Shown piece by piece: positions 3,559 to 44,219 of a DNA stretch of 52,598 nucleotides (within the stretch, counting starts at the first letter, position 1; every line of letters begins with the position of its first letter). Made by a program: the position numbers and the translations under genes. The DNA is taken from contig NZ_CALMGQ010000145.1 of the NCBI RefSeq assembly GCF_937863595.1, positions 1-52,598 on the forward strand, read 5' to 3'. A model generated the notes under the pieces. The model was not told the origin of the DNA. It searched no databases and worked only from the letters and a program-made list of their open reading frames with translations. The DNA is from an uncultured Cytophaga sp. Lineage in GTDB: Bacteria; Bacteroidota; Bacteroidia; Cytophagales; Cytophagaceae.

Positions 3559-3738
3559 AAACTATGGTCGTTATACTTCAATATATATGTTTAAGGAATA
3601 GAATGTAACCAAACAGCTGTTCCTAATTTAACTTATTATTATACGCTATCATTTTCTTAACGTTTTACTATTCAACAATTTGATTTTTAACTGAGTGTAG
3701 GCAATGCGTTTTCATAAAACAACGATGAATCAATTTCC

Positions 3739-3746
3739 TATATTTG
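3739..3746 (+). promoter_or_regulatory. Candidate Bacteroidota -7 box upstream of the DsbA-like gene
   Basis: TATATTTG matches the Bacteroidota -7 consensus TAnnTTTG, 38 bases before the start at 3785. A matching -33 TTTG at the usual spacing is not clear, so the call is tentative. Confidence 0.4.
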
Positions 3747-3784
3747 ATGTTGAATAAAGCACAATATTCATTTACGGAGTATTT

Positions 3785-4522
3785 ATGAAAAAATCAACAT
3801 TGTATATTTCTACCATTTTTTGTATTCTATTGCTAACAAGCTCAGAAGTAAAAAAATATGAAAGCCTCACAAAACCAATTAAGCTTATTTATGTATATGA
3901 TGCACTTTGCGGATGGTGTTATGGCTTTGGGCCTGTAATCAATCAAATTGGGAATGATTATAAAGACAAAGTTGAAATTGAGATTTTAAGCGGAGGTATG
4001 GTGCTGGGAGATAGAATTGGACCCATTAGCAACATGTCCGAATACGTATTAAGTGCTATTCCCATACTTGAAGAAGCAAGTGGAGTAACATTTGGACAAG
4101 CGTATATAGAATTAGTAAAAGAGGGTAGTTATGTTTCCTCTTCTGAAAAACCATCCATTGCACTTTGTGTATACAAATCATTCACATCAAAAAATCAGAT
4201 CGCATACGCACACTCCATTCAAAAGGCTTTTTTTATAGAAGCGCGAGATATAAACCAAGACTCTGTTTATGCAAACATTGCAACTCAATTTGATCTTGAT
4301 AAAGTTGAGTTCTTAAAAAGAATGCAAGACACTGCCTATCTTAATTTAGCGCATGCAGAATTTGCTAAAGCGACAAAAATGGGTGTTACAGGATATCCCA
4401 CTCTTTTACAAAAAAAAGAGAACGGATATCAAGTTTTATGTGAAGGATATGTAAGTTATAAAGCTCTTGAAAAAAAGATAAATAAAGCGATAAAGGAAGA
4501 AAATAAAAAGGGCTCTATTTGA
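3785..4522 (+). CDS. DsbA-family (FrnE-like) thiol-disulfide protein
   Basis: 245 residues with an N-terminal hydrophobic segment, then a thioredoxin fold starting KLIYVYDALCGWCYGFGP. The CGWC motif at the start of the first helix is the redox pair. Most relatives (FrnE / COG3531 protein-disulfide isomerases) carry a DPMCSWCWGF-like version, so CGWC is a variant. The helical insertion and the cis-proline segment GVTGYPTLL near residue 200 follow, as expected for DsbA-like proteins. The signal segment suggests a periplasmic or membrane-attached location. The stop codon lies inside the terminator stem (4510-4556). It appears monocistronic. Confidence 0.82.
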   Translation: MKKSTLYISTIFCILLLTSSEVKKYESLTKPIKLIYVYDALCGWCYGFGPVINQIGNDYKDKVEIEILSGGMVLGDRIGPISNMSEYVLSAIPILEEASGVTFGQAYIELVKEGSYVSSSEKPSIALCVYKSFTSKNQIAYAHSIQKAFFIEARDINQDSVYANIATQFDLDKVEFLKRMQDTAYLNLAHAEFAKATKMGVTGYPTLLQKKENGYQVLCEGYVSYKALEKKINKAIKEENKKGSI

Positions 4523-4556
4523 TTAAAAATGGGTAGCGACAAATTATATAGAGCCC
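4510..4556 (+). terminator. Intrinsic terminator overlapping the DsbA-like stop codon
   Basis: 9-bp perfect stem, 4510-4518 with 4548-4556, long loop, followed by ATTTTGTTTTTTT. The left arm is within the coding sequence and the stop codon is at 4520-4522. Confidence 0.75.
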
Positions 4557-4567
4557 ATTTTGTTTTT

Positions 4568-4917
4568 TTATGTGTCTATAAATAAATTTGTATAACCATT
4601 GTACAAGTGCCGACCACCGCGAGGTCGCATATTTATAGTATATAACTATACGCCAATTTATACGCCCAATCATCAACTTATATTCAAGCGATTAAGATTA
4701 ATCCTTTCGTAATTGCGCCTGTTTATTTACTTATTTTTGTTTTGCTATAAATATGTGAACCTGCCGCAGTCATAATGCATTTAATTGTTTGCAAAAATTT
4801 AGAAAGTCAATATATGATTACCTACTATAAATCATATAGAGGCATAAAAAGTAAAATTGCTTATCTGCTAATGAATTAATTTATACTTTAACAGTTATAG
4901 CTTTAAAATTTCTATTC
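4568..4917. other. Non-coding gap with a small GC-rich hairpin
   Basis: About 350 bases without a convincing gene. A compact GC-rich patch at 4607-4628 contains a 5-bp stem (CGACC 4611-4615 with GGTCG 4623-4627) in otherwise very AT-rich DNA, followed by the AT palindrome TATAGT/ACTATA (4634-4650). The remainder before the dioxygenase start is AT-rich leader. I cannot assign a function. Confidence 0.5.
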
Positions 4918-5799
4918 ATGAACAGGAGAGCATTTATTAATACAAGTACTTTATTTGGTTTCACTATGTTAGGATTACATCAATTTGCCCGTGCTTGGGA
5001 TAATGAGCAAACCATTGAAACAGTAATGCCTGTCTTATTCATTGGACATGGAAGTCCAATGAATGCAATTGAACAAAATAGGTTTACGGATACATGGAAA
5101 AATATTGCTAAAGAAATTTCAATTCCCAAAGCAATCATGGTTGTGTCTGCACATTGGGAAACGGTTGGCACAAAAGTTACTGCAATGCAACACCCTCGAA
5201 CCATTCATGATTTTGGTGGTTTTCCCAAAGCACTTTTTGATGCACAATATCCAGCAGCTGGAACTCCGGAATTTGCGAAACAAACGCAAGACCTTTCGAC
5301 CCATTGGAAAATTGATGAAGATCACGAATGGGGTTTAGACCATGGAACATGGTCTGTATTGATGTCGATGTATCCCAATGCAGATATTCCTGTTTTTCAA
5401 ATGAGTTTAGATGTACGCAAAAAACCGGAAGAGCAGTTTGCTCTTGCACAAGATTTATTTGAATTAAGAAAACGAGGTGTACTCATTATCGGAAGCGGTA
5501 ATGTAGTACATAACTTACGAATGATCAAATGGGATAACTCTGCTTTTGATTGGGCTGAAAATTTTATACATACCGTTAAAACTATTGTTGATACAGATAA
5601 TTTTAGCCCATTGATACAGTATACGTCTCTTGAAAATTATAAATATGCGATACCTACGCCAGAGCATTACTTGCCCTTGTTATATTGTTTAGGCTTAAAG
5701 ACAAAAACAGATTCTATTCGTTATTTTAATGATGTAACAACGAATGGTTCCATCTCTATGCTTGGTTTGCTTATTCATCAAAAAAAAGAAGCTCGATAG
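4918..5799 (+). CDS. ygiD: Class III extradiol dioxygenase, DODA / YgiD family
   Basis: 293 residues. After a 26-residue leader beginning MNRRAFINTS, the catalytic domain starts at MPVLFIGHGSPMNA and keeps the family landmarks: VVSAHWE, the DFGGFP segment, DHGTWSVL and GSGNVVHNL, which carry the histidines that bind the metal. Relatives cleave catecholic rings such as L-DOPA, and the family is often annotated 4,5-DOPA dioxygenase extradiol. The RRxFI leader resembles a twin-arginine signal (recorded as a finding), so this copy may be exported. No catabolic neighbours indicate its natural substrate. The start at 4918 is the only one that retains the leader. Confidence 0.85.
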   Translation: MNRRAFINTSTLFGFTMLGLHQFARAWDNEQTIETVMPVLFIGHGSPMNAIEQNRFTDTWKNIAKEISIPKAIMVVSAHWETVGTKVTAMQHPRTIHDFGGFPKALFDAQYPAAGTPEFAKQTQDLSTHWKIDEDHEWGLDHGTWSVLMSMYPNADIPVFQMSLDVRKKPEEQFALAQDLFELRKRGVLIIGSGNVVHNLRMIKWDNSAFDWAENFIHTVKTIVDTDNFSPLIQYTSLENYKYAIPTPEHYLPLLYCLGLKTKTDSIRYFNDVTTNGSISMLGLLIHQKKEAR

Positions 5800-5813
5800 T
5801 TTTACCGAGCTTC
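5788..5813. terminator. Terminator between convergent genes
   Basis: 8-bp perfect stem GAAGCTCG/CGAGCTTC (5788-5795, 5806-5813), preceded by an A-run and followed by TACAATTTTTTTTT. The left arm overlaps the dioxygenase 3' end. It can serve both the dioxygenase (+) and the gene at 5832 (-). Confidence 0.75.
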
Positions 5814-5831
5814 TACAATTTTTTTTTAAAA

Positions 5832-6701
5832 TTACTTTGTGATGGTATACGCCATTACTGAATTACCAAAAAAAGTAGGCACAATTAATAACTGTTCCGT
5901 ATCTACATAGCATGCATCTGCTGCATTTAGTTTGGCTGCTTTTGTATCTAATATTTTTTCCACAAGTGTATCATTAATATAATACACTTCTCCTGGCCAA
6001 CAAGAGATAATGTATTCCTTTTTAGAAACCTGCATTACCCCATCTCCACCTGGAATGCCTTGTGCAACACCTGTTAATTTCTTAGTTGTATAGTCAGCAT
6101 CGTAAAATAAACCTGTCTCCATGTCAATAATACGTAAAGAACTATCTAATGCATACAAACCATTTGGTTTAAGTAACATCGGATCTTTTGCCCATAAGCT
6201 TACCACGCCGTTTCTATAAACATGGATTGTTCTCGCATCCGAATCTGTAAAGTATACATCGCCTTTGGCATCAATTGTAACATCATTCAAAAATTGTGCA
6301 CTGTCCACAACGATTGATTTTTCAATTGTTGCCGTTTCCATATCAATTATTACGAGCTTATGAATATCTGTTACATACATTTTTCCATTGTATACACCCA
6401 TTCCTTTTGGTGCATCTAATCCCTTAACCCATTCCAACTGCTCTATTTTTCCATCTAAACTCATACGACTTATGAATCCATTGCCATCTACACTATCTGG
6501 TTTACCATTGATGTTCGAAACATATAGAAATTCATCTGCTTTATTATATAAAACAGATTCGGGCACTTTAAAAATAGTATCTGTTTGCCATTTTAAAATA
6601 GCCTTTACTCCTGTAACCAACAGTTCTTCAGGTTCTGGTTTTTTATTTTCTGAACAGCTTAACAGTAAGAGTACAGAGACGAAATATATAATTTTATTCA
6701 T
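5832..6701 (-). CDS. SMP-30 / NHL-like beta-propeller lipoprotein
   Basis: 289 residues with lipobox LLSC near residue 16. The rest is a six-blade-type propeller: repeated strand patterns such as PESVLYNKADEFLYVSNI, LNDVTIDAKGDVYFTDSD and KPNGLYALDSSLRI, like SMP-30/gluconolactonase and related ATP/GTP-binding-annotated proteins. Enzymatic residues are less complete than in the paralog at 16718, so it may be a binding propeller rather than a lactonase. It lies 29 bases downstream of the GH3 gene on the same strand and is probably co-transcribed with it, which suggests a role in sugar or sugar-acid handling at the envelope. The link is inferred from position only. Confidence 0.72.
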   Translation of the reverse strand: MNKIIYFVSVLLLLSCSENKKPEPEELLVTGVKAILKWQTDTIFKVPESVLYNKADEFLYVSNINGKPDSVDGNGFISRMSLDGKIEQLEWVKGLDAPKGMGVYNGKMYVTDIHKLVIIDMETATIEKSIVVDSAQFLNDVTIDAKGDVYFTDSDARTIHVYRNGVVSLWAKDPMLLKPNGLYALDSSLRIIDMETGLFYDADYTTKKLTGVAQGIPGGDGVMQVSKKEYIISCWPGEVYYINDTLVEKILDTKAAKLNAADACYVDTEQLLIVPTFFGNSVMAYTITK

Positions 6702-6730
6702 GCGTACATTTTTAATTTAGTTGAAAATAA

Positions 6731-8989
6731 TTATTTATAATATACTAGTGCTTTTTGATTTGAAATCATTATTTCAAAAATTCCCTTTTCGGTAACGGTT
6801 TTAAGTGCTTCATTTACAAACGCAAGATCCCTCTTTGTTAATACAAAGTCAACGGATTTGGTTTCTCCTGGTATTAAATTTATTTTCTCAAATTTTCTCA
6901 ATCGCTTCACACATGGCGTAATCGATGCAACCAAATCATGCGTATACAATTCAATTACTTCTTGGCCTGCTACCTTGCCCGTGTTTGTAACTTTTACAGA
7001 AATTCTTAATGAATCATTTATTGCCAATGTATCTGTATTCATTATAATCTTTCCATACTCAAACGTTGTATAAGACAATCCATGGCCAAATGGATATTGT
7101 GGATTGAACTCATAAAAATAGTTGTATTCTGGTTCAACAATTTCTACCGCTTCATCCAACAATTTATGATCGTAGGTAATCAATGTGCCACTATAACGCG
7201 GATAGGTAAAAGGTAATTTCCCACTTGGATTATACGTTCCATAAAGTACGTCGTAAATGGCTTGTGCACCGTGTGTGCCCGGCCAATAAGCCAATACTAT
7301 AGCGCTGCAATAAGGTTCTATTTCTCTAATAATTCTCGGGCGACCCTCTAACAATACCAATACAATCGGCTTGCCCGTGCTAGCAAGTGTTTTTATCATA
7401 TCCACTTGTGTTGAATCAAATGCCAAGTCTGGAATATTGCCTGGAGTCTCTGCATATGCCGCTTCCCCAGCACAAATTACAATAACGTCTGAACTCCGTG
7501 CTGCTTTTATCAACGCTCCTTTATTTAATACGTTCGATTTATCCCAAGCAGATAAATCAAATATGCTTGTTAGCGGTGCATTCTTTTCAAACGCTTCAGC
7601 AATGGTTAATAAAGTGTCTGGATAAAATTCTTCCTTATTCCCTTGCCATGTGTAGGACCAGGCGCCATGTAATTCTGATAAAGTATTTGCAAACGGACCA
7701 GTAACCAATACACGTGTTTTGTCTGTGAAGGGCAATAGGTCATTTTTATTTTTTAGCAAGGTAATTGATTCACGTGCCGTCTGTACTGCTGTTTTAGTAT
7801 AAGCTGGCTTAGAAAATGCTTGCAATGCGTCTTGTTCTAAATAGGGGTGATCAAATAAGCCCAGATCTTTTTTTAATTGTAAAATTCTTCTGACGGATTT
7901 GTTAATGCGTTCTTCTGAAATCTTTCCTTCTTTCACTAATGCAATTAAATCGTTTGTGAAACTAAAATCAAAGGGAACAATGCACATATCAATTCCTGCT
8001 GTTACCGCTAGGTATACTGCGTCCTTATGGGTTTTCGCAACATGATGACGTTCTTGAAGTTTCAATATATCCAACCAATCTGTAATTACAACTCCTTTAA
8101 ATCCCAGCTCCGTTCGTAATACATCCGTTAACAAATATTTACTAGCATGTACTGGAGTGCCATTTATTTCTGCTGAATTTACCATCAACGTATGTGTTCC
8201 TTCATTTACAGCCGCTCTAAACGATGGTAAAAAATATTCGCGCAATACAATTTCGGGTATATATGCTGGAGCTCTATCTTTCCCATTTTGCGGCATGGAG
8301 TATCCAATAAAATGTTTCATACATGCTGCCACATGAAATGGACTAGAAACATCACCCCCTTCAAGTCCTTGAATGGACGCAAGGCCCATCTCGGAAGTCA
8401 AATACGTATCTTCGCCAAAGGTTTCTCCAAATCGCGACCACTGCTGATTGCGGCCAACATCTAAGACAGGTGCAAAGTTATATCGAATGCCAGCAGCCCG
8501 AACTTGAACAGCTGTTATTGCTCCACATTCTTTTGCTAATACTCTATTTCTGGTAGCCGCCAAACCAATATTGTGAGGGAACAAGGTTGCGCCATAAACA
8601 TAATTCGCACCATGTACTGCATCAATGCAATATAAAAATGGGATTTTATGTCGTGTTTTTTCTAAAGTTAATTTTTGAATGGGTTCAATTATCGCATGCC
8701 ATTCGTCTAGTGTATATGCATGTGTTAATACATTTTGAATAGAACCCACATGATGTTTTATGATAACATCGTTTACCTTCGCAGTATCAAGTACCACTGT
8801 ACTGTCAACTTCATTTGCAATGGTTGCTAAGGTAAGGTTTGTCATTTGTCCAACCTTTTCCTCAATCGTCATCTGAGAAATAATTTTTTCAATTTCTTCT
8901 GAACTTGCTTCTTCGTGTTGTTTGGAACACGACATACAATAAAGCATGGAGACAGCAGACAATATCCTTATGATTTGATTTTTATACAT
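6731..8989 (-). CDS. GH3 beta-glucosidase lipoprotein
   Basis: 752 residues, a full-length family 3 glycoside hydrolase. Signal and lipobox end at C21. The N-terminal TIM-barrel contains DAVHGANYVYGATLFPHNIGLAAT (around 123-146), KHFIGYSMPQNG, and the nucleophile segment VVITDW with D304. The second alpha/beta domain follows (ESITLLKNK, the GxWS-type turn, LLEGRPRI), and the C-terminal fibronectin-III-like domain begins near GHGLSYTTFEYG. The family removes terminal beta-linked glucose or xylose from oligosaccharides. Lipidation suggests a periplasmic or outer-membrane location. There are no SusC/SusD genes nearby, so this is not a standard polysaccharide utilisation locus. Upstream on the same strand is an aldo/keto reductase, downstream a propeller lipoprotein. 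Confidence 0.93.
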   Translation of the reverse strand: MYKNQIIRILSAVSMLYCMSCSKQHEEASSEEIEKIISQMTIEEKVGQMTNLTLATIANEVDSTVVLDTAKVNDVIIKHHVGSIQNVLTHAYTLDEWHAIIEPIQKLTLEKTRHKIPFLYCIDAVHGANYVYGATLFPHNIGLAATRNRVLAKECGAITAVQVRAAGIRYNFAPVLDVGRNQQWSRFGETFGEDTYLTSEMGLASIQGLEGGDVSSPFHVAACMKHFIGYSMPQNGKDRAPAYIPEIVLREYFLPSFRAAVNEGTHTLMVNSAEINGTPVHASKYLLTDVLRTELGFKGVVITDWLDILKLQERHHVAKTHKDAVYLAVTAGIDMCIVPFDFSFTNDLIALVKEGKISEERINKSVRRILQLKKDLGLFDHPYLEQDALQAFSKPAYTKTAVQTARESITLLKNKNDLLPFTDKTRVLVTGPFANTLSELHGAWSYTWQGNKEEFYPDTLLTIAEAFEKNAPLTSIFDLSAWDKSNVLNKGALIKAARSSDVIVICAGEAAYAETPGNIPDLAFDSTQVDMIKTLASTGKPIVLVLLEGRPRIIREIEPYCSAIVLAYWPGTHGAQAIYDVLYGTYNPSGKLPFTYPRYSGTLITYDHKLLDEAVEIVEPEYNYFYEFNPQYPFGHGLSYTTFEYGKIIMNTDTLAINDSLRISVKVTNTGKVAGQEVIELYTHDLVASITPCVKRLRKFEKINLIPGETKSVDFVLTKRDLAFVNEALKTVTEKGIFEIMISNQKALVYYK

Positions 8990-9059
8990 CCCTTATTTAA
9001 AAATTAAATGAAACGTGGACTATTAATTAACCTGGAGAATATTATATGGTGTTGGATTA

Positions 9060-10031
9060 TTATTGAGACCAAGCTGTTGGCTCTCTATCCCAACGGTGTT
9101 TTTTCAGCACATTGTACATATCTGCATCAAGTCTTGTGCCATCACTAACAGCGGTATTTGCTAATACATTGCGTTCTTTTCTCATACCCGGAATGGTTGT
9201 CGACACATCGTCATTCATTAAGATAAAGCGTAAGGCAAGCTCCGCCATAGACATTTCTTTTGTAACGAAAGGTCTTAAAAGATCTGCATGCTCTGCACTC
9301 GCAATTAAATTTTCTGGAACAAAATAGCTCGCTCTCCAATCGCCTTCGTCAAAAGTAGTGTCTTTGGTAATGTTTCCTGTTAAAGTCCCTTCATCAAAGG
9401 GTACGCGCGCAATGGTAGCAATGCCTAATTTTTTGCATAAAGGAAACAAAACATCTTCAGGTGCTTGATCAAAAATATTATAAATCACTTGCACAGAATC
9501 TATCAAGCCCGTTTTTAAGGTGTTTAAACAATTTTCTGGTTCCCATCTATTTACGCTTATTCCCCAAGCATCGACTTTGCCTTCCTTTTGCAAATCTTCT
9601 ACTGCTCGCTGCCAACGATCATCAAATGCCCAGGCATCTTCCCACACATGAAACTGCATTAAGTCTATCTTTTCTAGACCAAGATTTTTCAAACTTGTTT
9701 CCGTATATTTCTTTATATGGTCTGCGGGAAAACATTCATCTAGGCTATAAGATTTTTTAGAAGGCCATTTAAAATTCATCGGCGGAATTTTAGTGGCTAC
9801 ATATATTTTTTTGCTTTGGTGTCTTTGAACCAATTTGCCTAACAACTGTTCGCTATGTCCTTCGCCATATCCCCAAGCTGTATCAAAAAAATTAACCCCT
9901 CGTTCAACAGCAAGGTCTAACGATTTTTCAGATTGGCTATCTTCTGAACCTTTCCAGCCACTTGCACCCCACATGCCGTAACCAATTTCACTAACCTGCC
10001 AATTTGTACGGCCAAACTTTCTTAATTGCAT
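9060..10031 (-). CDS. Aldo/keto reductase
   Basis: 323 residues, the standard AKR barrel. The opening MQLRKFGRTNWQVSEIGYGMW, the catalytic FFDTAWGYGEGHSEQLLG (Asp and Tyr), the KIP segment with catalytic Lys (YVATKIPPM) and the H of LMQFHVWED are all in place. The NADPH-binding region is near the C-terminus (STTIPGMRKERNV). It probably reduces carbonyl sugars or aldehydes in the cytoplasm; no signal peptide. It sits 70 bases upstream of the GH3 gene on the same strand, so it could be part of a sugar-related unit with 6731 and 5832. The substrate cannot be read from sequence. Confidence 0.9.
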   Translation of the reverse strand: MQLRKFGRTNWQVSEIGYGMWGASGWKGSEDSQSEKSLDLAVERGVNFFDTAWGYGEGHSEQLLGKLVQRHQSKKIYVATKIPPMNFKWPSKKSYSLDECFPADHIKKYTETSLKNLGLEKIDLMQFHVWEDAWAFDDRWQRAVEDLQKEGKVDAWGISVNRWEPENCLNTLKTGLIDSVQVIYNIFDQAPEDVLFPLCKKLGIATIARVPFDEGTLTGNITKDTTFDEGDWRASYFVPENLIASAEHADLLRPFVTKEMSMAELALRFILMNDDVSTTIPGMRKERNVLANTAVSDGTRLDADMYNVLKKHRWDREPTAWSQ

Positions 10032-13261: not shown

Positions 13262-15004
13262 TTAAAATCGAATACCCGCATTAAAGCCCAGCCAGTAAGG
13301 GTTGTAAATGTTATCCCCGTTTGATATTTTAATCGTATTTTGGTATACAATAGCTTTATTTGGAATTATTTTTGATCCTTTTACTCCACTTGAATTTATA
13401 TACTTAGAAAACGACGTGTTGAATGTCGGTCCCGCAAACAAGGATACTCTCTTTGATATCTGTAAACCCAACATAATACGTAATTGAAGTTGCTCATTCA
13501 TCCTATTTGTGAAGGCTTCATTTTCATTTATATGTAATGCTACAAGATCAAAAGATATTGTTGAATTCTTACTCATTTGCGAAGTAGTTCCAAGTCCATA
13601 ACCAAATGTCCAGCGATAACTTACAGAATTAAAATTTACTCCGAATTCAAAAATATTATACAATCCTTTTACCCCACTTTTAATGGCAATATTTGCGCGT
13701 GTAGTTTCCGAATAATATGCTTCTATTTTAGCATATCCATTTTTAGCAATAGATAATATTCCAAAAGGCACGCCATGTATCGTATCGCAAATATTAATGA
13801 GCCCAAATTGAAAACCATTTACTTTATGCGCATGATTAACTAAACCAATTTGTCCGCCATTCACTACGCCATTATGCTGATTAACGATACACGCTAGTTG
13901 TAAACCGTCTAATTGTTCCGTTCCTACATTTACAGCACCTGACACTTGTACGCCAGAGGCTGCACCATTCGCAACATTTACAAGACCCGCAAATTGCCCA
14001 CCAATAAGCTCTTGATTTGTAATGTTTGCAATCCCTGCAAACTGTGCACCTCGCACATATTCTCCAACAATATTTGTTATGCCTGCCATTTGAACACCAT
14101 GTACTTCTCTGCGGACTATATTTGCTACACCACCGTATTCAAATTTTGATACTGCGCCATTATATCCAATAAGTCCATTTAACGAATACTCATTTCTATA
14201 AAGACCACTCGTTAAGCCATGTGATGCTAAAGGGTAAATTCCAGTAAATTGAAAATCATCTTGAATCAATAAATCTTCGCTGTATTGAATGTTAGATGTA
14301 TCTGTAATTTTTTTGGGTCTACGCTCCAATTGTTTCGCGATCATTATACTGTCGCGCAATTGTTTGTATTCCTTTTCAAGCGCTAATTTAGATGCTTTAT
14401 AACTCTTTTTTAATTGCGTATTATTTAAAAAAGATTGAATGGCTACACTATCTTTTTTTTGAACATAGGTAGAATTTAAGTCTATAAGTCCTTTTGAGTA
14501 CGAATTATCTAATAGCTTTATTGCTTGCACCGTGTCTGTCGAAATAAATTCGAAGGGCTTTGCAATCAATATTACTGGTGGAATTAGTGAATCTTTGTCA
14601 GACTCTATTATTGTATTTGTTTCAGGTGTTGTCTCTAGATTTGTATTGGTCTTAACACTCGTATTATTTTTCGGGGGCGCCGGATAATGATGTTCAGCTT
14701 TATTTCTTTTTAATACAATCTGATTACCTACTGCTCTATAAACGATAGGTGTTGATTTAAATAGTTTGTTCAGAACGTAGCCTAGACTTTCATTTTTAAC
14801 ATAAAAAGTTACGTGTCTACTTAAATCCACTTGGTCTGGAGAATAAGAAAAATTTACACCGTACGTGTTCTTTATCTGTTTAAGTGCTTGTTCTATACTA
14901 ATGTTTTGGAACTGAATAGTTACTTTTTTATCCAGTACTTGCGCAAAAATTGCATGTGTGGAAATGAATAGAAAAAGTAATGTCAGATGAATTTTTTGTC
15001 TCAT
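13262..15004 (-). CDS. STN-domain outer-membrane protein with GxQxAGxxN repeats
   Basis: 580 residues with a signal peptide ending near AIFA-Q. Residues about 28-100 are an STN (secretin/TonB short N-terminal) domain: VTIQFQNISIEQALKQI, YSPDQVD, VLNKLFKSTPIVYRAVGNQIVLK. A Pro/Thr linker and a Lys-rich helical region (about 180-245) follow. Residues about 288-425 are about nine repeats of 14-16 residues, such as VQMAGITNIVGEYVRG and AQFAGIANITNQELIG, like the surface-repeat family typified by Leptospira LA_2272. The C-terminal 150 residues look like outer-membrane beta strands and end in NAGIRF. STN domains normally sit on TonB receptors that talk to FecR; here no receptor domain is present. 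The gene follows sigma and FecR genes with a 44-base gap, so it is likely the surface sensor or target of that system. Confidence 0.75.
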   Translation of the reverse strand: MRQKIHLTLLFLFISTHAIFAQVLDKKVTIQFQNISIEQALKQIKNTYGVNFSYSPDQVDLSRHVTFYVKNESLGYVLNKLFKSTPIVYRAVGNQIVLKRNKAEHHYPAPPKNNTSVKTNTNLETTPETNTIIESDKDSLIPPVILIAKPFEFISTDTVQAIKLLDNSYSKGLIDLNSTYVQKKDSVAIQSFLNNTQLKKSYKASKLALEKEYKQLRDSIMIAKQLERRPKKITDTSNIQYSEDLLIQDDFQFTGIYPLASHGLTSGLYRNEYSLNGLIGYNGAVSKFEYGGVANIVRREVHGVQMAGITNIVGEYVRGAQFAGIANITNQELIGGQFAGLVNVANGAASGVQVSGAVNVGTEQLDGLQLACIVNQHNGVVNGGQIGLVNHAHKVNGFQFGLINICDTIHGVPFGILSIAKNGYAKIEAYYSETTRANIAIKSGVKGLYNIFEFGVNFNSVSYRWTFGYGLGTTSQMSKNSTISFDLVALHINENEAFTNRMNEQLQLRIMLGLQISKRVSLFAGPTFNTSFSKYINSSGVKGSKIIPNKAIVYQNTIKISNGDNIYNPYWLGFNAGIRF

Positions 15005-15048
15005 CTTAAAATTTTTTCTATAAATATACTAAAAAGTCTTTTAAAAAA

Positions 15049-16074
15049 TTATTTGCACCCTTCTCCTTTTAAGATGTATAAAGAACCTTGTTTCTCGATT
15101 TGCATATTCATGGAAAGTGCAATTACTTGTAAAATTTCTTCCACATCTGCATTGTCAAATTCACCCGTAAATCTGCATGTACCCATGTCTGGATTATTTA
15201 GTTTTACGTCAACACCTGTTCGACTTTTTAAATCCGTTACTACTTGATTTAAAGGAGTCCCAGTAAAAATCAGTAGGTCCGCATTTCTCCAAACGGCAGG
15301 CTTCGTATTCATTGTTTCACCTTTGCGCAAGTTGCCAATTCTATCTACGGTACACGTCATTCCTTTTGTTAGCATGACTTCTTTACCAGAGCGACTGTAT
15401 TTTTCTAGCACAGCAACTTTACCTTCTTCCACTTTTATAACATCTACCGAATCATTTGCTCTACTGCATACCAAAAATTTGGTTCCTTTTACTACTACTC
15501 TAGATCTGAATGATAAAACAGTAAATGGCTTTTTTTCGTTTTTTTGTACTTCAAAGAACGCTTCGCCATCTAAATATACGATACGTTCTGTTTCGCCATA
15601 TGTAGACGCATACCGAACCGTAGTTGTATCATGCACATATACTTTGCTGCTATCAGGAAGATAAAACTCCTTCATTCCTCCAAAGGATTGTAAATCTGTA
15701 AAAGTAGGTTTGGTAAATACAACATTACTCATAGCCCACGTTATACATGCTAAGAGCAATACTGCTGCTGCAGCTTTGGCCACTGGTGCTTGCCAGATAT
15801 TCACCCATAAAGAAATACTCTTTACTTCTTTACAATCTATCGTTTGCGCTTTTACAGCATTCCAAGCCTTAACAATATTGAATTCAGGGAATTGATTTCT
15901 CTCTCTCGAAACTTTCCAAGATTTTTCAACTTCTTCAAAAAACAACTTATGCTCCGGCTTTTCCGCTTTCCAGAGGTAAAGTTCTTGCACTTCTTGTTCC
16001 GAAAGTTCTCCCTGCTTAAAAGCAGTGATTGTTTCGTACCAGTAGTCGCTATTTAGAATATTTTCGTTTTTCAT
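15049..16074 (-). CDS. FecR-family anti-sigma factor
   Basis: About 342 residues from the preferred ATG at 16074 (MKNENILN); longer in-frame starts at 16080 and 16104 add up to ten residues without support. The N-terminal cytoplasmic anti-sigma segment includes YWYETITAFKQGELSEQEVQELYLWK, a single membrane helix lies near residues 95-113 (VAKAAAAVLLLACITWAM), then the periplasmic FecR domain (LPDSSKVYVHDTTTVRY, VYLDGEAFFEV, VVVKGTKFLV, VEEGKVAV) and a C-terminal domain of the DUF4974 type (FTGTPLNQVVTDLKSRTGVDVKL, CRFTGEFDNADVEEILQVIALSMN). It is expected to hold the ECF sigma encoded 40 bases upstream until a signal arrives from an STN domain. Confidence 0.9.
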   Translation of the reverse strand: MKNENILNSDYWYETITAFKQGELSEQEVQELYLWKAEKPEHKLFFEEVEKSWKVSRERNQFPEFNIVKAWNAVKAQTIDCKEVKSISLWVNIWQAPVAKAAAAVLLLACITWAMSNVVFTKPTFTDLQSFGGMKEFYLPDSSKVYVHDTTTVRYASTYGETERIVYLDGEAFFEVQKNEKKPFTVLSFRSRVVVKGTKFLVCSRANDSVDVIKVEEGKVAVLEKYSRSGKEVMLTKGMTCTVDRIGNLRKGETMNTKPAVWRNADLLIFTGTPLNQVVTDLKSRTGVDVKLNNPDMGTCRFTGEFDNADVEEILQVIALSMNMQIEKQGSLYILKGEGCK

Positions 16075-16118
16075 GGTCATTTCAATACTAAGACAATTGA
16101 GCAAAGGATTACCCCTAT

Positions 16119-16721
16119 TTATATATTGAAAATAATTGTGCTATTTTCAGAAATAAATATTGCGAGAAATAAGAGGAAAAGATGCTCTCTCATAATTCTC
16201 AGCGCTTTACCCATATGATTCTCAACTGTTTTAACAGATATTTGAAGCATTTCTGCTATTTCTTTGTAAGATAATTGCTCTTCTCTGCTCAACATGAAGA
16301 CAGTTCTGCAAGCATCTGGCATCGATGCAATTGCCTTATTAATTGAATCTTGCATTTCTTTACCCTCTAATTCCAAGATTGGGTCATAAGAAACAGACGC
16401 TGTTTCTTCGCTCAAAATTGACACGTCTTCATGTACAATTTTTTTAGCCCTATTGTATTCATTTATGCTTCTATTATAAACCGCACGAAATAAATAGGTC
16501 TTAAAAGAAGATTGAATGATCGTACTTGTTCTTTTATCCCAAAAATTTACAAAACACGTTTGTACAACATCTTCTGCAAGATCCTTATCTCGAACAATTC
16601 GAAATGAAAATCTACATAAGTGTTTGTAATAGGTATGAAACAAAGATTCAAAATAGTCTTCTTCGTTATCAGAAGGCCAATCTTTTTCTGTGTCTTTTAT
16701 AAGCCTGTGAGGGGTACTCAT
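16119..16721 (-). CDS. ECF RNA polymerase sigma-70 factor (FecI-like)
   Basis: 200 residues. Region 2: YYKHLCRFSFRIVRDKDLAEDVVQTCFVNFWDKR, with the DLAEDVVQ core-binding segment. Region 4: SMPDACRTVFMLSREEQLSYKEIAEMLQISVKTVENHMGKALRIMREHL, a helix-turn-helix. The Bacteroidota FecI-like group is typical. The last 18 residues (LFLLFLAIFISENSTIIFNI) are unusually hydrophobic, which is common in this group. The ATG overlaps the TGA of the lactonase-like gene in an ATGA, so translation is probably coupled. FecR follows after a short gap. This places sigma, anti-sigma and the STN protein under whatever controls the lactonase-like gene. Confidence 0.93.
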   Translation of the reverse strand: MSTPHRLIKDTEKDWPSDNEEDYFESLFHTYYKHLCRFSFRIVRDKDLAEDVVQTCFVNFWDKRTSTIIQSSFKTYLFRAVYNRSINEYNRAKKIVHEDVSILSEETASVSYDPILELEGKEMQDSINKAIASMPDACRTVFMLSREEQLSYKEIAEMLQISVKTVENHMGKALRIMREHLFLLFLAIFISENSTIIFNI

Positions 16722-17740
16722 TTATTTAATTTAAGACGTAACAAATACATATTTGCTGTGATATACAAATAAGACTCTGTATCATCTAGGGCAACATTTG
16801 AAGCATGTTCTTTAATTTTAATCGTAGCAATATGCTTTCCAGCTGGATTGAAAACCCAAATACCCATCGGACCAGAAGCGTATATATATCCCTTGCTATC
16901 CATCTTTAAACCATCGGGCAATCCTTTACCTTTATTTACAAAAGGAGTTGCATCCATAAATACGTTGCCGTTACTAAGTTTACCCAAACTGTCAATATCA
17001 TATACCGCCCAAATTGCGCGTGCTGGATCCGAATTGGCTACATATAATTTCTTTTCATCATTAGAAAGAATAAGTCCGTTGGGACGGGTTAAAGAATCAA
17101 TGATTTGTTCTACAGAACCATCTGCATTCAATCTATACACGCCTTCTTTTGTTTGTTCTTTTAATGGATCATTTTCTTGTTTTTCTAATCCGTATGGAGG
17201 ATCAGTGAAATAATAATTTCCCTTTTTGTCTGCAATAACATCATTTGGGCTGCTAAAGCGTTTGCCATCAAATTTATCAGCAAGTGTTTTAAAATCTGCT
17301 GTTGGAGCATCTAAAGGCGCGAGCATTACTGCTATGCGTCTATCACCACATTGTGTTAATATTAACTTGCCTTCGCTATTTAAACAAAGCCCATTAGATC
17401 CTGTTTCGCCTCCACGTGTAATTGTATCTGTATACCCAGATGGGGTTAAATATAGTTGCAGACTATCTTTCTCTGACCAGCTATTGATGGTGTTTCTGGG
17501 AACATCTGAAAAAATTAATTTGTGTTGGTCTTTTAACCAAAGCGGACCTTCTGCCCATAAAAATCCTTGTGCAAGAATTTCTGCCTTCGCATCTTTTGAA
17601 AATAAGGTTTCTGCTTCGGGATCTAATATTTCGATTTCACTCAATGTGTCTGCTAACTTAACTTGAGTATGTTGTTTTTGATCGGTACAGCTTGACAAAA
17701 AAATTGCCAAAATGGAAATAACTAAAAGACTCTTTTTCAT
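16718..17740 (-). CDS. SMP-30/gluconolactonase-family lipoprotein
   Basis: 340 residues, lipobox LSSC (C18). The mature part is a six-bladed propeller of the SMP-30/LRE family: GFLWAEGPLWLKDQHKLIFSDVP (start motif with metal-binding Glu), GSNGLCLNSEGKLILTQ, FSSPNDVIADKKGNYYFTDPPYGL (metal-binding Asn), TRPNGLILSNDEKKLYVANSD (metal-binding Asn/Asp) and GLPDGLKMDSKGYIYASGPMGIWVF. Relatives hydrolyse sugar lactones using a divalent metal. The propeller motifs are more complete than in the gene at 5832. It is the first gene of an operon with the ECF sigma (4-base overlap), FecR and STN genes. This pairing is unusual and suggests that a lactone or sugar acid may be part of the signal (inference). 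Confidence 0.86.
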   Translation of the reverse strand: MKKSLLVISILAIFLSSCTDQKQHTQVKLADTLSEIEILDPEAETLFSKDAKAEILAQGFLWAEGPLWLKDQHKLIFSDVPRNTINSWSEKDSLQLYLTPSGYTDTITRGGETGSNGLCLNSEGKLILTQCGDRRIAVMLAPLDAPTADFKTLADKFDGKRFSSPNDVIADKKGNYYFTDPPYGLEKQENDPLKEQTKEGVYRLNADGSVEQIIDSLTRPNGLILSNDEKKLYVANSDPARAIWAVYDIDSLGKLSNGNVFMDATPFVNKGKGLPDGLKMDSKGYIYASGPMGIWVFNPAGKHIATIKIKEHASNVALDDTESYLYITANMYLLRLKLNK

Positions 17741-17809: not shown

Positions 17810-18802
17810 TTAGGTAGTTTGAGATTTTTGAACGAACCAATTTTGAGGCAAGCGTTTTGTGATTTTTACGACTACAAAAGTAACAAGCAATGCAAATATC
17901 ATTCTAAAAATAAACACCATCGACCAGTGTGCACCCATGGATATCATTAGCAATGAGTCTTCAATTAAGCTGTGACATAAGCCCATTAAAACAAATGCAT
18001 AAAATACATCCATGGCAGGAATTTCCTTTTCTTCTGTCTCCTTAATAATTAATGCGCCTCCATATAAAATACCTAAACTCATGCCAATCACTGTCATGGG
18101 TATTACTTCTTTGTTAATCCCCAAGATGCTTAGTATTGGTTTTAAACCTTCACTAAATGTATTTAATATTCCAGATCTTTTTAATACACGCATTACAAAC
18201 AATAGCGCCATCACAACAAAGAATACTATGATGTATTTTTTAATTTCACCCAATACCCAATCCCCGATGCTGGGGTTTACAAGAATTTCAGGTTTCCATT
18301 GAATACTATTTGGTTGTTGTAAAAATTGGGTTTCATTTAACAATAGATTCATGCAAATAGCAGTAAGGATTCCAAAACCAAAACGAATTAAAAACATAAT
18401 CCAAAGTTTGCACCCTGCTTTGCGCGCTATTTGTAATTCTATTGGAAGTGCATGTGCCATCAACATCATACAACATAAGATGGATACTTGCGCGGTTGTC
18501 AAGGTGTTAGAAATATCTAAGGAATAAAATGCAATCATTCCTCCGTAAATATTGGTTACCATAGTTGTAGCCCAAATGATGCCGCAAGCGCCTGGTAAGC
18601 CAACAAATTTCATTATGGGGGCAAGTGCAGATCCTAAATAATCAATCCATCCTAAATACTGCAATACCTTTACAGCGATAGAAATGGGTATCATTATTTT
18701 ATATAACAGCAATGCTGATTTACTTGTGTCTTTTATTAAACTTTTGGAGGCCTTAATCATAGTTGCATGAAAGAATTCAAAAATAGGCAGAAAGTAATTC
18801 AT
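17810..18802 (-). CDS. Nucleoside-recognition (Gate) domain membrane protein
   Basis: About 330 residues with around eight membrane helices, of the SpmA/SpmB-like nucleoside-recognition family: IKDTSKSALLLYKIMIPISIAVKVLQYLGW, the second Gate-type half with GMSLGILYGGALIIKE, and CHSLIEDSLL near residue 290. I place the start at 18802 (MNYFLPIFEFF). An upstream in-frame ATG at 18829 lies inside the terminator hairpin (18806-18840) of the gene transcribed ahead of it and would add nine residues (MFKTYKPFS) of hairpin-encoded sequence. The transported solute is unknown. Transcription may come from read-through or from a promoter overlapping the terminator. Confidence 0.82.
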   Translation of the reverse strand: MNYFLPIFEFFHATMIKASKSLIKDTSKSALLLYKIMIPISIAVKVLQYLGWIDYLGSALAPIMKFVGLPGACGIIWATTMVTNIYGGMIAFYSLDISNTLTTAQVSILCCMMLMAHALPIELQIARKAGCKLWIMFLIRFGFGILTAICMNLLLNETQFLQQPNSIQWKPEILVNPSIGDWVLGEIKKYIIVFFVVMALLFVMRVLKRSGILNTFSEGLKPILSILGINKEVIPMTVIGMSLGILYGGALIIKETEEKEIPAMDVFYAFVLMGLCHSLIEDSLLMISMGAHWSMVFIFRMIFALLVTFVVVKITKRLPQNWFVQKSQTT

Positions 18803-18805
18803 AGA

Positions 18806-18840
18806 AAAGGGCTTGTACGTTTTAAACATACAAGCCCTTT
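18806..18840 (-). terminator. Terminator of the rhodanese-thioredoxin gene
   Basis: 12-bp perfect stem (18806-18817 with 18829-18840), 11-base loop, followed on the minus strand by TTTTCTA. It lies between the stop of 18862 and the start at 18802. Confidence 0.82.
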
Positions 18841-19656: not shown

Positions 19657-20298
19657 TTATTCGGCAGAAATGGTAGTTTTATGGGGAGTTCTGACATATA
19701 CTTTGTGTCGTGCATTGTATTTAGAAATAAAAGGGAAAGATTTTTTATTGTCTGGGTCTTTTTTAATTTTTTTGAAACTAGCAGATAAGGCTGGGTCTCT
19801 AGTTATAATTGGCTCCAATGTTTTTTTATCAACTTTCGCAATTACTCCAGATGTATAATCTAAAAAGTACATTGTTATTTTAATCTGACCGTTGCCTACT
19901 GTTGATCGGTCTGCATCATTTGCTGGGACTGAAACCCATTCTTTTATCATAAAGGTTGAAATAGCTGCTTTTAAAAAAATCGGATTTAATTGGGATTTAT
20001 AAAATATAAATAATCGCCCATTTATAACCGTTGCATATAAATTCGCTTCAAACTTTAAACGTGTGTTATTGCTGTTTATATAAAATAAATTATCAACGTT
20101 AATTTTATCTTGAATGGCTCCAATCTCTAATTCGCAATTGGGGAATTTCGGAGTATTGCTTCTTACCTCTTTTAAAGACGTATAAATTCCATTTTTTAAT
20201 AGTAAACTGTTGTCAAATAACATGCTATCATACTCTGTTTGAGCAAAAAGTGTTATGGCAAAAAATGCAAGTATAATACAGGTAATTGTTTTTTTCAT
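19657..20298 (-). CDS. Secreted protein, paralog A of a tandem pair
   Basis: 213 residues with a cleavable signal (ending near LFAQ). The mature part matches the next gene upstream over its full length: FDSMLFDN versus FDSILFDN, NGIYTSLKE versus NGIYSTLEE, NTRLKFEANLYATVINGRLFIFY versus NTRLKFESSLYATVVEGRLSIFY, and KKSFPFISKYNAR versus KKSYPFISQYNTR. I recognise no family for either. Shorter than paralog B mainly because it lacks a Gly/Tyr-rich insertion. No lipobox. Separated from paralog B by 70 bases on the same strand, so possibly one transcript. Confidence 0.75.
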   Translation of the reverse strand: MKKTITCIILAFFAITLFAQTEYDSMLFDNSLLLKNGIYTSLKEVRSNTPKFPNCELEIGAIQDKINVDNLFYINSNNTRLKFEANLYATVINGRLFIFYKSQLNPIFLKAAISTFMIKEWVSVPANDADRSTVGNGQIKITMYFLDYTSGVIAKVDKKTLEPIITRDPALSASFKKIKKDPDNKKSFPFISKYNARHKVYVRTPHKTTISAE

Positions 20299-20368
20299 TG
20301 AATCAATTTGTTTCCGTCCGATTATTTGTACTCAAAAATATGTATAAAGAATTCAAATTTCCTGATTG

Positions 20369-21046
20369 TTATTCTTCTGATTTAGGTATTACGGGCAATA
20401 CGTAAATATACATAGGATTTCGAGTATTGTATTGAGAAATAAAAGGATACGACTTTTTATTGTTAGCATCGCTTCTTATTTTTTTGAAACTTGAATATAA
20501 GACAGGATCTCTCATAATTATTGGTTCCAAATTTTCCTTATTTACTTTGGAAATAAAACCTGTAGCAAAATCCAAACAATATATGTTGACTTCTACACTA
20601 CTTGTAGTTACGGGTACCGTACTTCCATAACCTGGATAGCCATAACCCATATTGTTTTGCGGCATATAGGTTGTCGTTGTAACAATTTCATTCAGTATAA
20701 ATGTAGATATTGCCCCTTTCAAAAAAACAGGATTTAATTGATTGTCATAAAAAATAGATAAGCGACCTTCAACAACAGTCGCATATAAACTCGATTCAAA
20801 CTTTAAGCGTGTGTTTCTGCTATTTCTATAATATAACGTATTTAAATATATTCGATCTTGATTTTTCTCTAATTCCAATTCACTATCCGGATATCTAGGC
20901 GAATTGTATTTAAGTTCCTCTAAAGTGCTATAGATTCCATTTTTAAAAACAGTTTTGTTGTCAAATAAGATACTATCAAAACCAATTTGAGCAAAAAGAG
21001 GTAGCATCAAAAAAAGATATACCGCACACAAAAACGCCTTTTTCAT
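20369..21046 (-). CDS. Secreted protein, paralog B of a tandem pair
   Basis: About 225 residues from the ATG at 21046 (MKKAFLCAVYLF), which starts a proper signal peptide ending near FAQ. An upstream ATG at 21127 would run the frame through the terminator of the MscS gene and is unlikely to be used. The mature part aligns with paralog A throughout. It contains an extra Gly/Tyr/Pro-rich insertion (NNMGYGYPGYGSTVPVTT, about residues 130-148 of this form) absent from A. Function unknown; gene duplication with divergence of one loop is the visible history. Confidence 0.75.
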   Translation of the reverse strand: MKKAFLCAVYLFLMLPLFAQIGFDSILFDNKTVFKNGIYSTLEELKYNSPRYPDSELELEKNQDRIYLNTLYYRNSRNTRLKFESSLYATVVEGRLSIFYDNQLNPVFLKGAISTFILNEIVTTTTYMPQNNMGYGYPGYGSTVPVTTSSVEVNIYCLDFATGFISKVNKENLEPIIMRDPVLYSSFKKIRSDANNKKSYPFISQYNTRNPMYIYVLPVIPKSEE

Positions 21047-21098
21047 ATACCAATTTATATAAAATTCCGCAGTAATTTGCAGAAGTTTCAATTGCAAA

Positions 21099-21132
21099 TA
21101 AAAATGTCTGAGCCAACGCTCAGACATTTTTA
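21099..21132 (-). terminator. Terminator of the MscS gene
   Basis: 15-bp stem (21099-21113 with 21118-21132), 4-base loop, followed on the minus strand by TTTTTATTTG after the stop of 21138. Confidence 0.85.
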
Positions 21133-42470: not shown

Positions 42471-44219
42471 TTATATTCGCGCTTGGTAGGTATGCAATTC
42501 ATAATACCTTCCCTCCTTCGCAATCAGTTCCGTATGGTTTCCTTGCTCCGCAATTTTTCCGTTTTCAATTACTAATATTTGATTGGCTTTTCTAATTGTA
42601 CTCAATCTGTGTGCGATTACAAAAGTTGTTCTGCCTTTCATTAATTCGGCCAAACTTTGTTGTATCAAGGATTCGCTTTGTGTATCTAAATTAGAAGTGG
42701 CTTCATCCAAAATAATAATTTTAGGATCTGCTAAGATTGCACGTGCAATGGCAATACGCTGACGTTGCCCGCCTGATAATTTTACACCACGCTCGCCAAT
42801 TAAGGTATCCAAGCCTTCACCAAAACGATCTGTAAATTCATTCACGTAACCTGCTTTCACGGCGTTCAACAATTGCTCTTCCGTAGCATCTGGTCTCGGG
42901 AATAAAATATTTTCTCTGATCGTTCCTTCAAACAAAAAATCATCTTGTAATACCACACCCAAATTTCTACGATAGCTGCTTAAGGTAACTTCTGATAAAT
43001 CAATCCCATCGATGGTGATTTTTCCTGATTCTGCATTTAAGAACGTTGCGACCAAGCCTGCAATTGTAGACTTGCCCGAACCTGATGTTCCTACCAATGC
43101 CGTTACTGTTCCGGCTGGTGCATCAAAACTCACATTGTTTAATACTTCTTTTCCTTCTACATAAGCAAAACACACATTATCAAATTTAATATCCCCTTTG
43201 ATTTCATTTAATGCAATCGTTCTTTTTACGCTATCTTCTTCTGCATCCATGTTCATAATTTCTTCGGTACGATCAAGACCTGCAAATGCTTCCGTAAGCT
43301 GACTGCCAATGTTACTCATTTGTACAATGGGTGCAATCATAAAGCCTAAATACATTGTGAACGACAAAAACTCTCCGCTCGTCATTTGTCCATTAATCAT
43401 CAAATAACCACCAATGCCCATAATCCCTAAGGTTGCCATACCCAATAAGAACAACGAAGCACTCGCAATCAATGAAGTAGATGTTAAGCTTTGTTTTACA
43501 TTTTCAAACAAGCGCTGCACTCCTGTTTCAAACGACTTGTTCTCTTGTTCTTCCGCATTAAATCCTTTGATGATGCGCACACCATTTAACGTTTCTGTTA
43601 ATCTACCTGTAACTTCTGCATTAATAATTCCACGCATTTTAAAGATTGGTCGGACATAACCAAATGCCTTCATCGCTATCACGGCAAAAATGGCAACGGG
43701 CACCAATACGTATACCGTCATCAGTGCATTGATCTTTATTAGTAGGACCAATGCAATAACAGACGTAATTGTTCCGCCAATTAATTGGACCAAACCTGTA
43801 CCAATTAAATTTCGAACACCTTCAACATCCGTCATAATCCGAGATACCAAAGCGCCCGATTTATTATTGTCGAAATAACTGATTGGCAAGCTCAATATTT
43901 TGCGTTGCACTTGTACCCGTAATTTTGAAATCAACAATTGCGCTTCCACGCTGAGAAGCTTTGTTAACAAGTACGAAATACCTGCATTTACGGTAATGGA
44001 TAAACCAACTACCCACAAAATTGTATACAGCATGTGCATGTCTTTATGCGCAACGACATCATCCAACAAGTATTTACTTGCGCCTGGTAACACCAAACTA
44101 GACAATCTACTGATGATGATTAATATCAAACCTATAAAAAGAATTTTTCTTCGGGGCCAAATGATTGTTTTAAAAACCTGACTAAGTGTTACTTTGCTTT
44201 TACTTTTAATTTTTTCCAT
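42471..44219 (-). CDS. ABC exporter half-transporter (MsbA-like)
   Basis: 582 residues with the ABCB layout: six membrane helices (20-310), intracellular loops, then the nucleotide-binding domain (about 340-580) with Walker A GTSGSGKST, Q-loop VVLQDDFLFEG, signature LSGGQRQRIAIARAIL, Walker B ILDEATSNLD and the H-loop VIAHRLSTI. It is a homodimeric exporter of lipids or drugs. MsbA-like sequence is suggested but substrate is unproven. Monocistronic; the stop at 42471 is near hairpin repeats. Confidence 0.93.
   Translation of the reverse strand: MEKIKSKSKVTLSQVFKTIIWPRRKILFIGLILIIISRLSSLVLPGASKYLLDDVVAHKDMHMLYTILWVVGLSITVNAGISYLLTKLLSVEAQLLISKLRVQVQRKILSLPISYFDNNKSGALVSRIMTDVEGVRNLIGTGLVQLIGGTITSVIALVLLIKINALMTVYVLVPVAIFAVIAMKAFGYVRPIFKMRGIINAEVTGRLTETLNGVRIIKGFNAEEQENKSFETGVQRLFENVKQSLTSTSLIASASLFLLGMATLGIMGIGGYLMINGQMTSGEFLSFTMYLGFMIAPIVQMSNIGSQLTEAFAGLDRTEEIMNMDAEEDSVKRTIALNEIKGDIKFDNVCFAYVEGKEVLNNVSFDAPAGTVTALVGTSGSGKSTIAGLVATFLNAESGKITIDGIDLSEVTLSSYRRNLGVVLQDDFLFEGTIRENILFPRPDATEEQLLNAVKAGYVNEFTDRFGEGLDTLIGERGVKLSGGQRQRIAIARAILADPKIIILDEATSNLDTQSESLIQQSLAELMKGRTTFVIAHRLSTIRKANQILVIENGKIAEQGNHTELIAKEGRYYELHTYQARI

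Follow-up and report, generated by a model that had tools for sequence, protein, structure and literature searches.

A probable FecI/FecR-type signalling locus of Cytophaga with a predicted small-barrel STN protein as the outer-membrane member

A four-gene locus from an uncultured Cytophaga sp. is likely to encode cell-surface signalling of the FecI/FecR type, with an outer-membrane member that is not a TonB receptor and with the mechanism proposed below. FecR cell-surface signalling is generally described as requiring a TonB-dependent receptor. We call the locus a new form of FecIR cell-surface signalling, and it is probably a split counterpart of the Dma anti-sigma factors. Signalling without a TonB receptor had been suggested by an earlier, sequence-only reading of this DNA, and it gains support from a conserved gene order, from the presence of a single FecR with a FecR_C domain and a single STN protein, and from a shared sigma-type element. 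The sigma factor, FecR and the STN protein are the core of the module.

The window, that is, the whole stretch of DNA analyzed, is a contig of 52,598 bases from a genome of 3.97 Mb (G000:C145). Open reading frames and Pfam and NCBIfam searches bear out the four genes at 13262-17740 that the sequence-only reading had listed, all on the minus strand and in the order lactonase, sigma, fecR, and stn. The lactonase gene (16718..17740, minus strand) encodes an SMP-30/gluconolactonase-like lipoprotein (SGL; PF08450, E 8e-41), whose nearest solved relatives are 3e5z and 3dr2. It overlaps the sigma gene (16119..16721, minus strand) by the four bases ATGA at 16718-16721, exactly as had been claimed. Upstream of the lactonase lies a gene for a Gate-domain membrane protein (17810..18829, minus strand; PF07670), an order also seen in L031 and L032; its linkage to the module is confined to the genus. 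The same locus is present in the Cytophaga aurantiaca DSM 3654 record NZ_KB903621.1. A possible second copy of the operon in the window, around a 582-residue reading frame at 42471, was rejected, that frame being an ABC transporter with M48 and LemA neighbors. Models of defense systems gave no matches. Elsewhere in the window, at 19657-21127, there are two tandem paralogous secreted proteins of 213 and 252 residues, to which no function was assigned.

The sigma factor, of 200 residues, belongs to the Bacteroidota FecI-like ECF family (NCBIfam TIGR02985, E 6e-50, 169.6 bits against a cut-off of 126.4), and its place in the gene order is kept in relatives. The FecR gene (15049..16080, minus strand; the listed frame runs to 16104) is present as had been noted, but with a different start: judged from the DNA, an ATG at 16080 or 16074 is most likely, rather than the listed TTG. 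Its product has a cytoplasmic N-terminus and a single transmembrane helix near residue 112, followed in the periplasm by a FecR domain (PF04773) and an STN-like C-terminal domain, FecR_C (PF16344), as in the known anti-sigma factors of FecIR systems; it matches PDB 4m0n at E 1e-17. The host genome has a second TIGR02985 sigma gene (L081, G000:C52:6000-18000, at 3559-10002), which is followed by genes for a short protein lacking FecR_C, a lipoprotein, a TonB receptor lacking STN, another lipoprotein, and a PepSY-like protein. This set looks like an iron or heme uptake operon.

The STN gene (13262..15004, minus strand) encodes a protein of 580 residues, the proposed outer-membrane sensor. The sequence-only reading had seen in it an STN domain, GxQxAGxxN repeats and a barrel-like terminus. 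All three are present, but the repeats form a predicted beta-solenoid that is separate from the barrel. AlphaFold2, given 25 aligned relatives, produced a model (mean pLDDT 81, pTM 0.53) with a signal helix followed by an STN fold at residues 27-101, disorder, a helical hairpin (158-227), and, from 247 onward, a beta-rich part; modeled by itself, the beta-rich part reaches pLDDT 91 and pTM 0.78. The STN domain (14702..14926, minus strand; Pfam STN, E 5e-14) is closest in fold to the C-terminal domain of a Parabacteroides FecR (4m0n, VIA-align Z 10.8), followed by PupR (6ovm, 9.5), PupA (2a02, 9.1), and FecA (1zzv, 8.5). The disordered linker and hairpin together span residues 103-227 (14324..14698, minus strand), as judged from model secondary structure and pLDDT. 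The repeats at residues 247-420 (13745..14266, minus strand) have a period of exactly 16 residues in nearly all relatives, whose lengths differ by whole repeats. The matches of this region are to beta-helix proteins, among them GlmU and phage tailspikes; since the rmsd to GlmU is high, about 10 A, we claim only a solenoid-like arrangement. Among family models, the LA_2272 surface repeat model NF047436 matches the repeat barely above its cut-off and VC2662 falls far below its own. The notion that the solenoid is a portion of the barrel was ruled out by the two models and the fold comparison. Residues 423-580 (13265..13738, minus strand) are modeled as an eight-strand OmpA-like barrel ending in Phe, with VIA-align Z scores of 12-15 over about 110-132 residues against OprF, OmpA, NspA, and designed barrels. 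The usual C-terminal Phe is found in 19 of 24 relatives. Because the number of strands is even and most relatives end in Phe, we infer that the N-terminal side of the barrel, and hence the solenoid and the STN domain, faces the periplasm. Thus the STN domain lies on a protein predicted from the model to be in the outer membrane, but this partner lacks the plug and the 22-strand barrel of a TonB receptor; Pfam finds no Plug domain in it.

The genome offers FecR a single candidate partner. The STN protein is the only protein in it with an STN domain, and FecR the only anti-sigma factor of the FecR_C type, the sole other FecR_C match being the STN protein itself. There are 15 TonB receptors with a Plug domain, none with STN and none encoded on the contig of the window. 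FecR here therefore has no alternative STN protein with which to pair.

The arrangement recurs in relatives, 30 of 59 of which have a homologue. FecR is directly upstream on the same strand in 38 of 41 barrels that bear STN, and in 35 of the 41 the sigma factor is there too, so the gene order is far from being a peculiarity of one genome. The three STN barrels without an adjacent FecR are those of L037, the second copy of L031, and L099. In contrast, none of 38 STN-less barrels has FecR or sigma directly upstream. As a check free of bias from the STN query, loci were also collected from 395 genomes of the phylum with the barrel only, and both genes were directly upstream in 11/12 STN barrels and 0/32 STN-less ones (Fisher p 2e-9; many of the loci are related, so the p-values overstate independence and this one is just a guide). 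A genome scan with a narrower alignment, A3, gave 7 loci. Distance matrices of STN and FecR_C co-vary weakly and positively (partial r 0.22 given the barrel), a signal inseparable from shared ancestry. Several local variations were seen along the way. In the closed Cytophaga genome G002, a single FecR is followed by two STN barrels (L031, 8020-9738 and 10551-12278). The single copy in C. aurantiaca is closer by eye to the second of these, which suggests differential loss. Lipoproteins with DUF2807 (GIN domain) are encoded just 3' of STN barrels in two genomes (L031, 12392-13099; L033, 8470-9255), and in a third (G051, L180) a similar-looking gene comes after the promoter-like element described next. 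STN-less solenoid-barrels of one distant family (L108, 5302-10184; L114, 4933-8187) lack FecR and have conserved neighbors, one of them a gene resembling that for methionine sulfoxide reductase.

Between the sigma and fecR genes of the window, at 16092..16117 on the minus strand, there is an exact match to a predicted promoter-like element, TAGGGGTA-N14-TGTC(TTA), which is the only such site in the window even when one mismatch is allowed. Of 28 non-redundant regions upstream of sigma in relatives, 11 contain TAGGGGTA, where 0.1 would be expected, and TGTC accompanies it at a fixed spacing. The form AGGGGTA-N13-15-TGTC occurs at 33 sites among the loci collected, compared to 2 for the reversed pattern and a permuted mean of 1.1 (maximum 7). 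Every one of the 37 aligned copies is preceded by a T, and one base after TGTC there is commonly a TA. When at most one mismatch is allowed, 25 of 35 modules have the element ahead of sigma or FecR, compared with an expected 0.85 of 35 for stretches drawn at random from these loci. Its other positions are before the second STN barrel of G002, where another copy precedes fecR (L031), before STN-less barrels in three loci, and before TonB-receptor-like genes in three loci. We offer, as an unproven reading, that the element is the -35/-10 promoter recognized by the sigma factor of the module and hence its predicted target. The fecR and stn genes should then have an internal promoter of their own, separate from that of lactonase and sigma.

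The element may also define a regulon. Over eight genomes there were 22 exact sites against 16 for the reversed control; since this count is barely above the control it was dropped as evidence, and only positions and repeated neighbors were used. In five of the eight genomes the same protein of 82-90 residues is encoded 22-71 bases downstream of the element. Its spacing is that of an acyl carrier protein, with a weak database match in support (E about 0.13), and the carrier serine is absent by inspection. When 59 genomes were searched for this acyl-carrier-like gene, the exact element was found before all 8 strong orthologues, and with one mismatch before that of G003; those weaker matches that are ordinary acyl carrier proteins lack the element. 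Presence of the element before this gene in nine genomes suggests a conserved regulon. Within the family, the gene occurs in 9/12 genomes with an STN barrel and 0/7 without (p 0.003). Another exact site in G000 precedes a DUF3575 gene of outer-membrane type. In two Cytophaga genomes (L188, 1875-3269; L189, 3-1400) a GH10 xylanase-like gene, so called from a Pfam run on L188, lies about 100 bases 3' of the acyl-carrier-like gene on the same strand.

The mechanism that we favor would run from the outer membrane inwards. The eight-strand barrel would anchor the sensor in the outer membrane, and the solenoid and helical linker would hold the STN domain in the periplasm, where FecR could meet it with its own STN-like C-terminal domain. 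FecR would hold sigma back at the inner membrane. Once the barrel receives a signal, the contact between STN and FecR might change, so that FecR is released or destroyed, presumably by proteolysis. The freed sigma factor would transcribe genes behind TAGGGGTA-N14-TGTC, among them fecR-stn and the acyl-carrier-like gene.

The scheme has precedents in known systems. Binding of an STN domain to the C-terminal region of FecR is established for PupB and PupR (PMC7186176), and in FoxA-FoxR the STN contact shields the anti-sigma factor from proteolysis (PMC11637429). The FecI-FecR-FecA, PupI-PupR-PupB, and FoxI-FoxR-FoxA systems share with the present locus an ECF sigma factor, a single-pass FecR with an STN-like C-terminus and an outer-membrane protein with an N-terminal STN domain (PMC7186176, PMC11637429). 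However, their partner is a 22-strand TonB receptor with a plug, whereas here an eight-strand barrel with a solenoid is predicted, in a genome without the receptor family that neighbors the module in relatives. That a protein other than a receptor can bear STN is known from VreA of the PUMA3 system (VreA-VreI-VreR) of Pseudomonas aeruginosa (PMC2729926). Unlike the STN protein here, VreA is mainly soluble and periplasmic, with a TolA/TonB-like C-terminus and no barrel; in PUMA3, the sigma gene overlaps that of the receptor, and the regulator is encoded in a unit of its own, again unlike here. Dma factors link sigma control to an outer-membrane barrel in Bacteroidota, also without a TonB receptor (PMC13088901). 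A Dma factor is one protein, with anti-sigma domain, transmembrane segment, tether, and barrel, and it acts with a sigma factor of the ECF21 family; here the anti-sigma factor and the barrel are split over two proteins, which would be joined via their FecR and STN domains. A fused arrangement laid out as in Dma was seen in a single case (G026, L051, 7634-10514), in which the sigma gene overlaps a gene for a 649-residue protein with a transmembrane segment and the same solenoid-barrel as the STN protein; directly downstream of this fused, anti-sigma-like protein is the gene for a true acyl carrier protein (PP-binding, E 1e-7). The LA_2272 and VC2662 families (NCBIfam) are comparable in the GxQ repeat, which matches NF047436, but their models cover the repeat alone, without STN or sigma control. 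The module thus combines features of Pup/Fox, VreA, and Dma in a form that we did not find described in the literature searched, and with its own control element it recurs across a large group of bacteria. The open literature searched gave no description of the element or of STN barrels without TonB receptors, although one may exist elsewhere.

Other readings of the locus have to be considered, of which a receptor-assisted origin is the main rival. The locus had been described as lacking a TonB receptor, which holds for this genome and not for the modules generally: the contig of the window has no Plug domain by Pfam, but in 11 of 42 modules the next gene on the same strand encodes a CarboxypepD_reg/Plug-like protein of one family (Plug scores slightly under the Pfam cut-off). 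The barrel may therefore normally serve a receptor, and the system could be a conventional TonB transducer that has lost it, the STN barrel being a former accessory and the Cytophaga remnant sensing through an unlinked receptor. Some of these receptor-like genes carry the element, one family member has its own STN domain (G022, L062), and G003 has a member at a different locus. Against this, no receptor of that family adjoins on the same strand in 31 of the 42 modules, the G000 genome has no match to the family at E 1e-20, and it has no other STN domain for FecR to meet. On balance we regard loss of a receptor as unlikely.

Another reading would be that FecR senses alone and that the STN barrel is a mere target of the sigma factor. 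The element does lie before fecR-stn, as it would for a target, and some STN-less barrels are likewise behind it. But the barrel carries STN almost only where FecR adjoins, which is more than a mere target would need, and of the readings considered this one seems to us the least probable. Nearly as improbable is the role proposed in the sequence-only reading for the lactonase, which would make or remove a sugar-lactone signal sensed by the barrel. The protein has the SGL propeller, with the SMP-30 family stretches EGP, PND, NGL, and DGL intact in alignment to 3e5z and 3dr2, and the ATGA coupling to sigma is also kept in both other Cytophaga genomes, giving way to a 3-base gap in the next relative, G003. 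However, of 22 genomes with a lactonase only 4, those of Cytophaga and one close MAG, have it next to the module, and in the other 18 the homologues lie elsewhere; most modules do without it, and the sigma-type element is downstream of it. From this restricted linkage, and from its position upstream of the predicted sigma-dependent promoter, the lactonase is probably an accessory or passenger and, like the Gate-domain gene, a local addition. A place in the signal path is thus not borne out.

A further reading is speculative and, on balance, unlikely: the module may belong to a separate sigma-linked branch of envelope sensing in Bacteroidota, in which the outer membrane itself is monitored by a small barrel whose periplasmic solenoid varies in length. 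Acyl-carrier-like proteins without the carrier serine are in the predicted regulon, so such a system might track or adjust membrane lipid supply rather than take up a nutrient. On this reading the split FecR-STN and the fused Dma-like forms would be alternative designs sharing a common barrel. If the mechanism favored above is right, a recurring module with an eight-strand barrel in place of the TonB receptor, a legible promoter element, and a predicted set of target genes would separate sensing from transport. It would also tie the Dma factors, described only recently, to FecR signalling of the classical kind, and it lends itself to simple tests in a genus that has a genetic model species.
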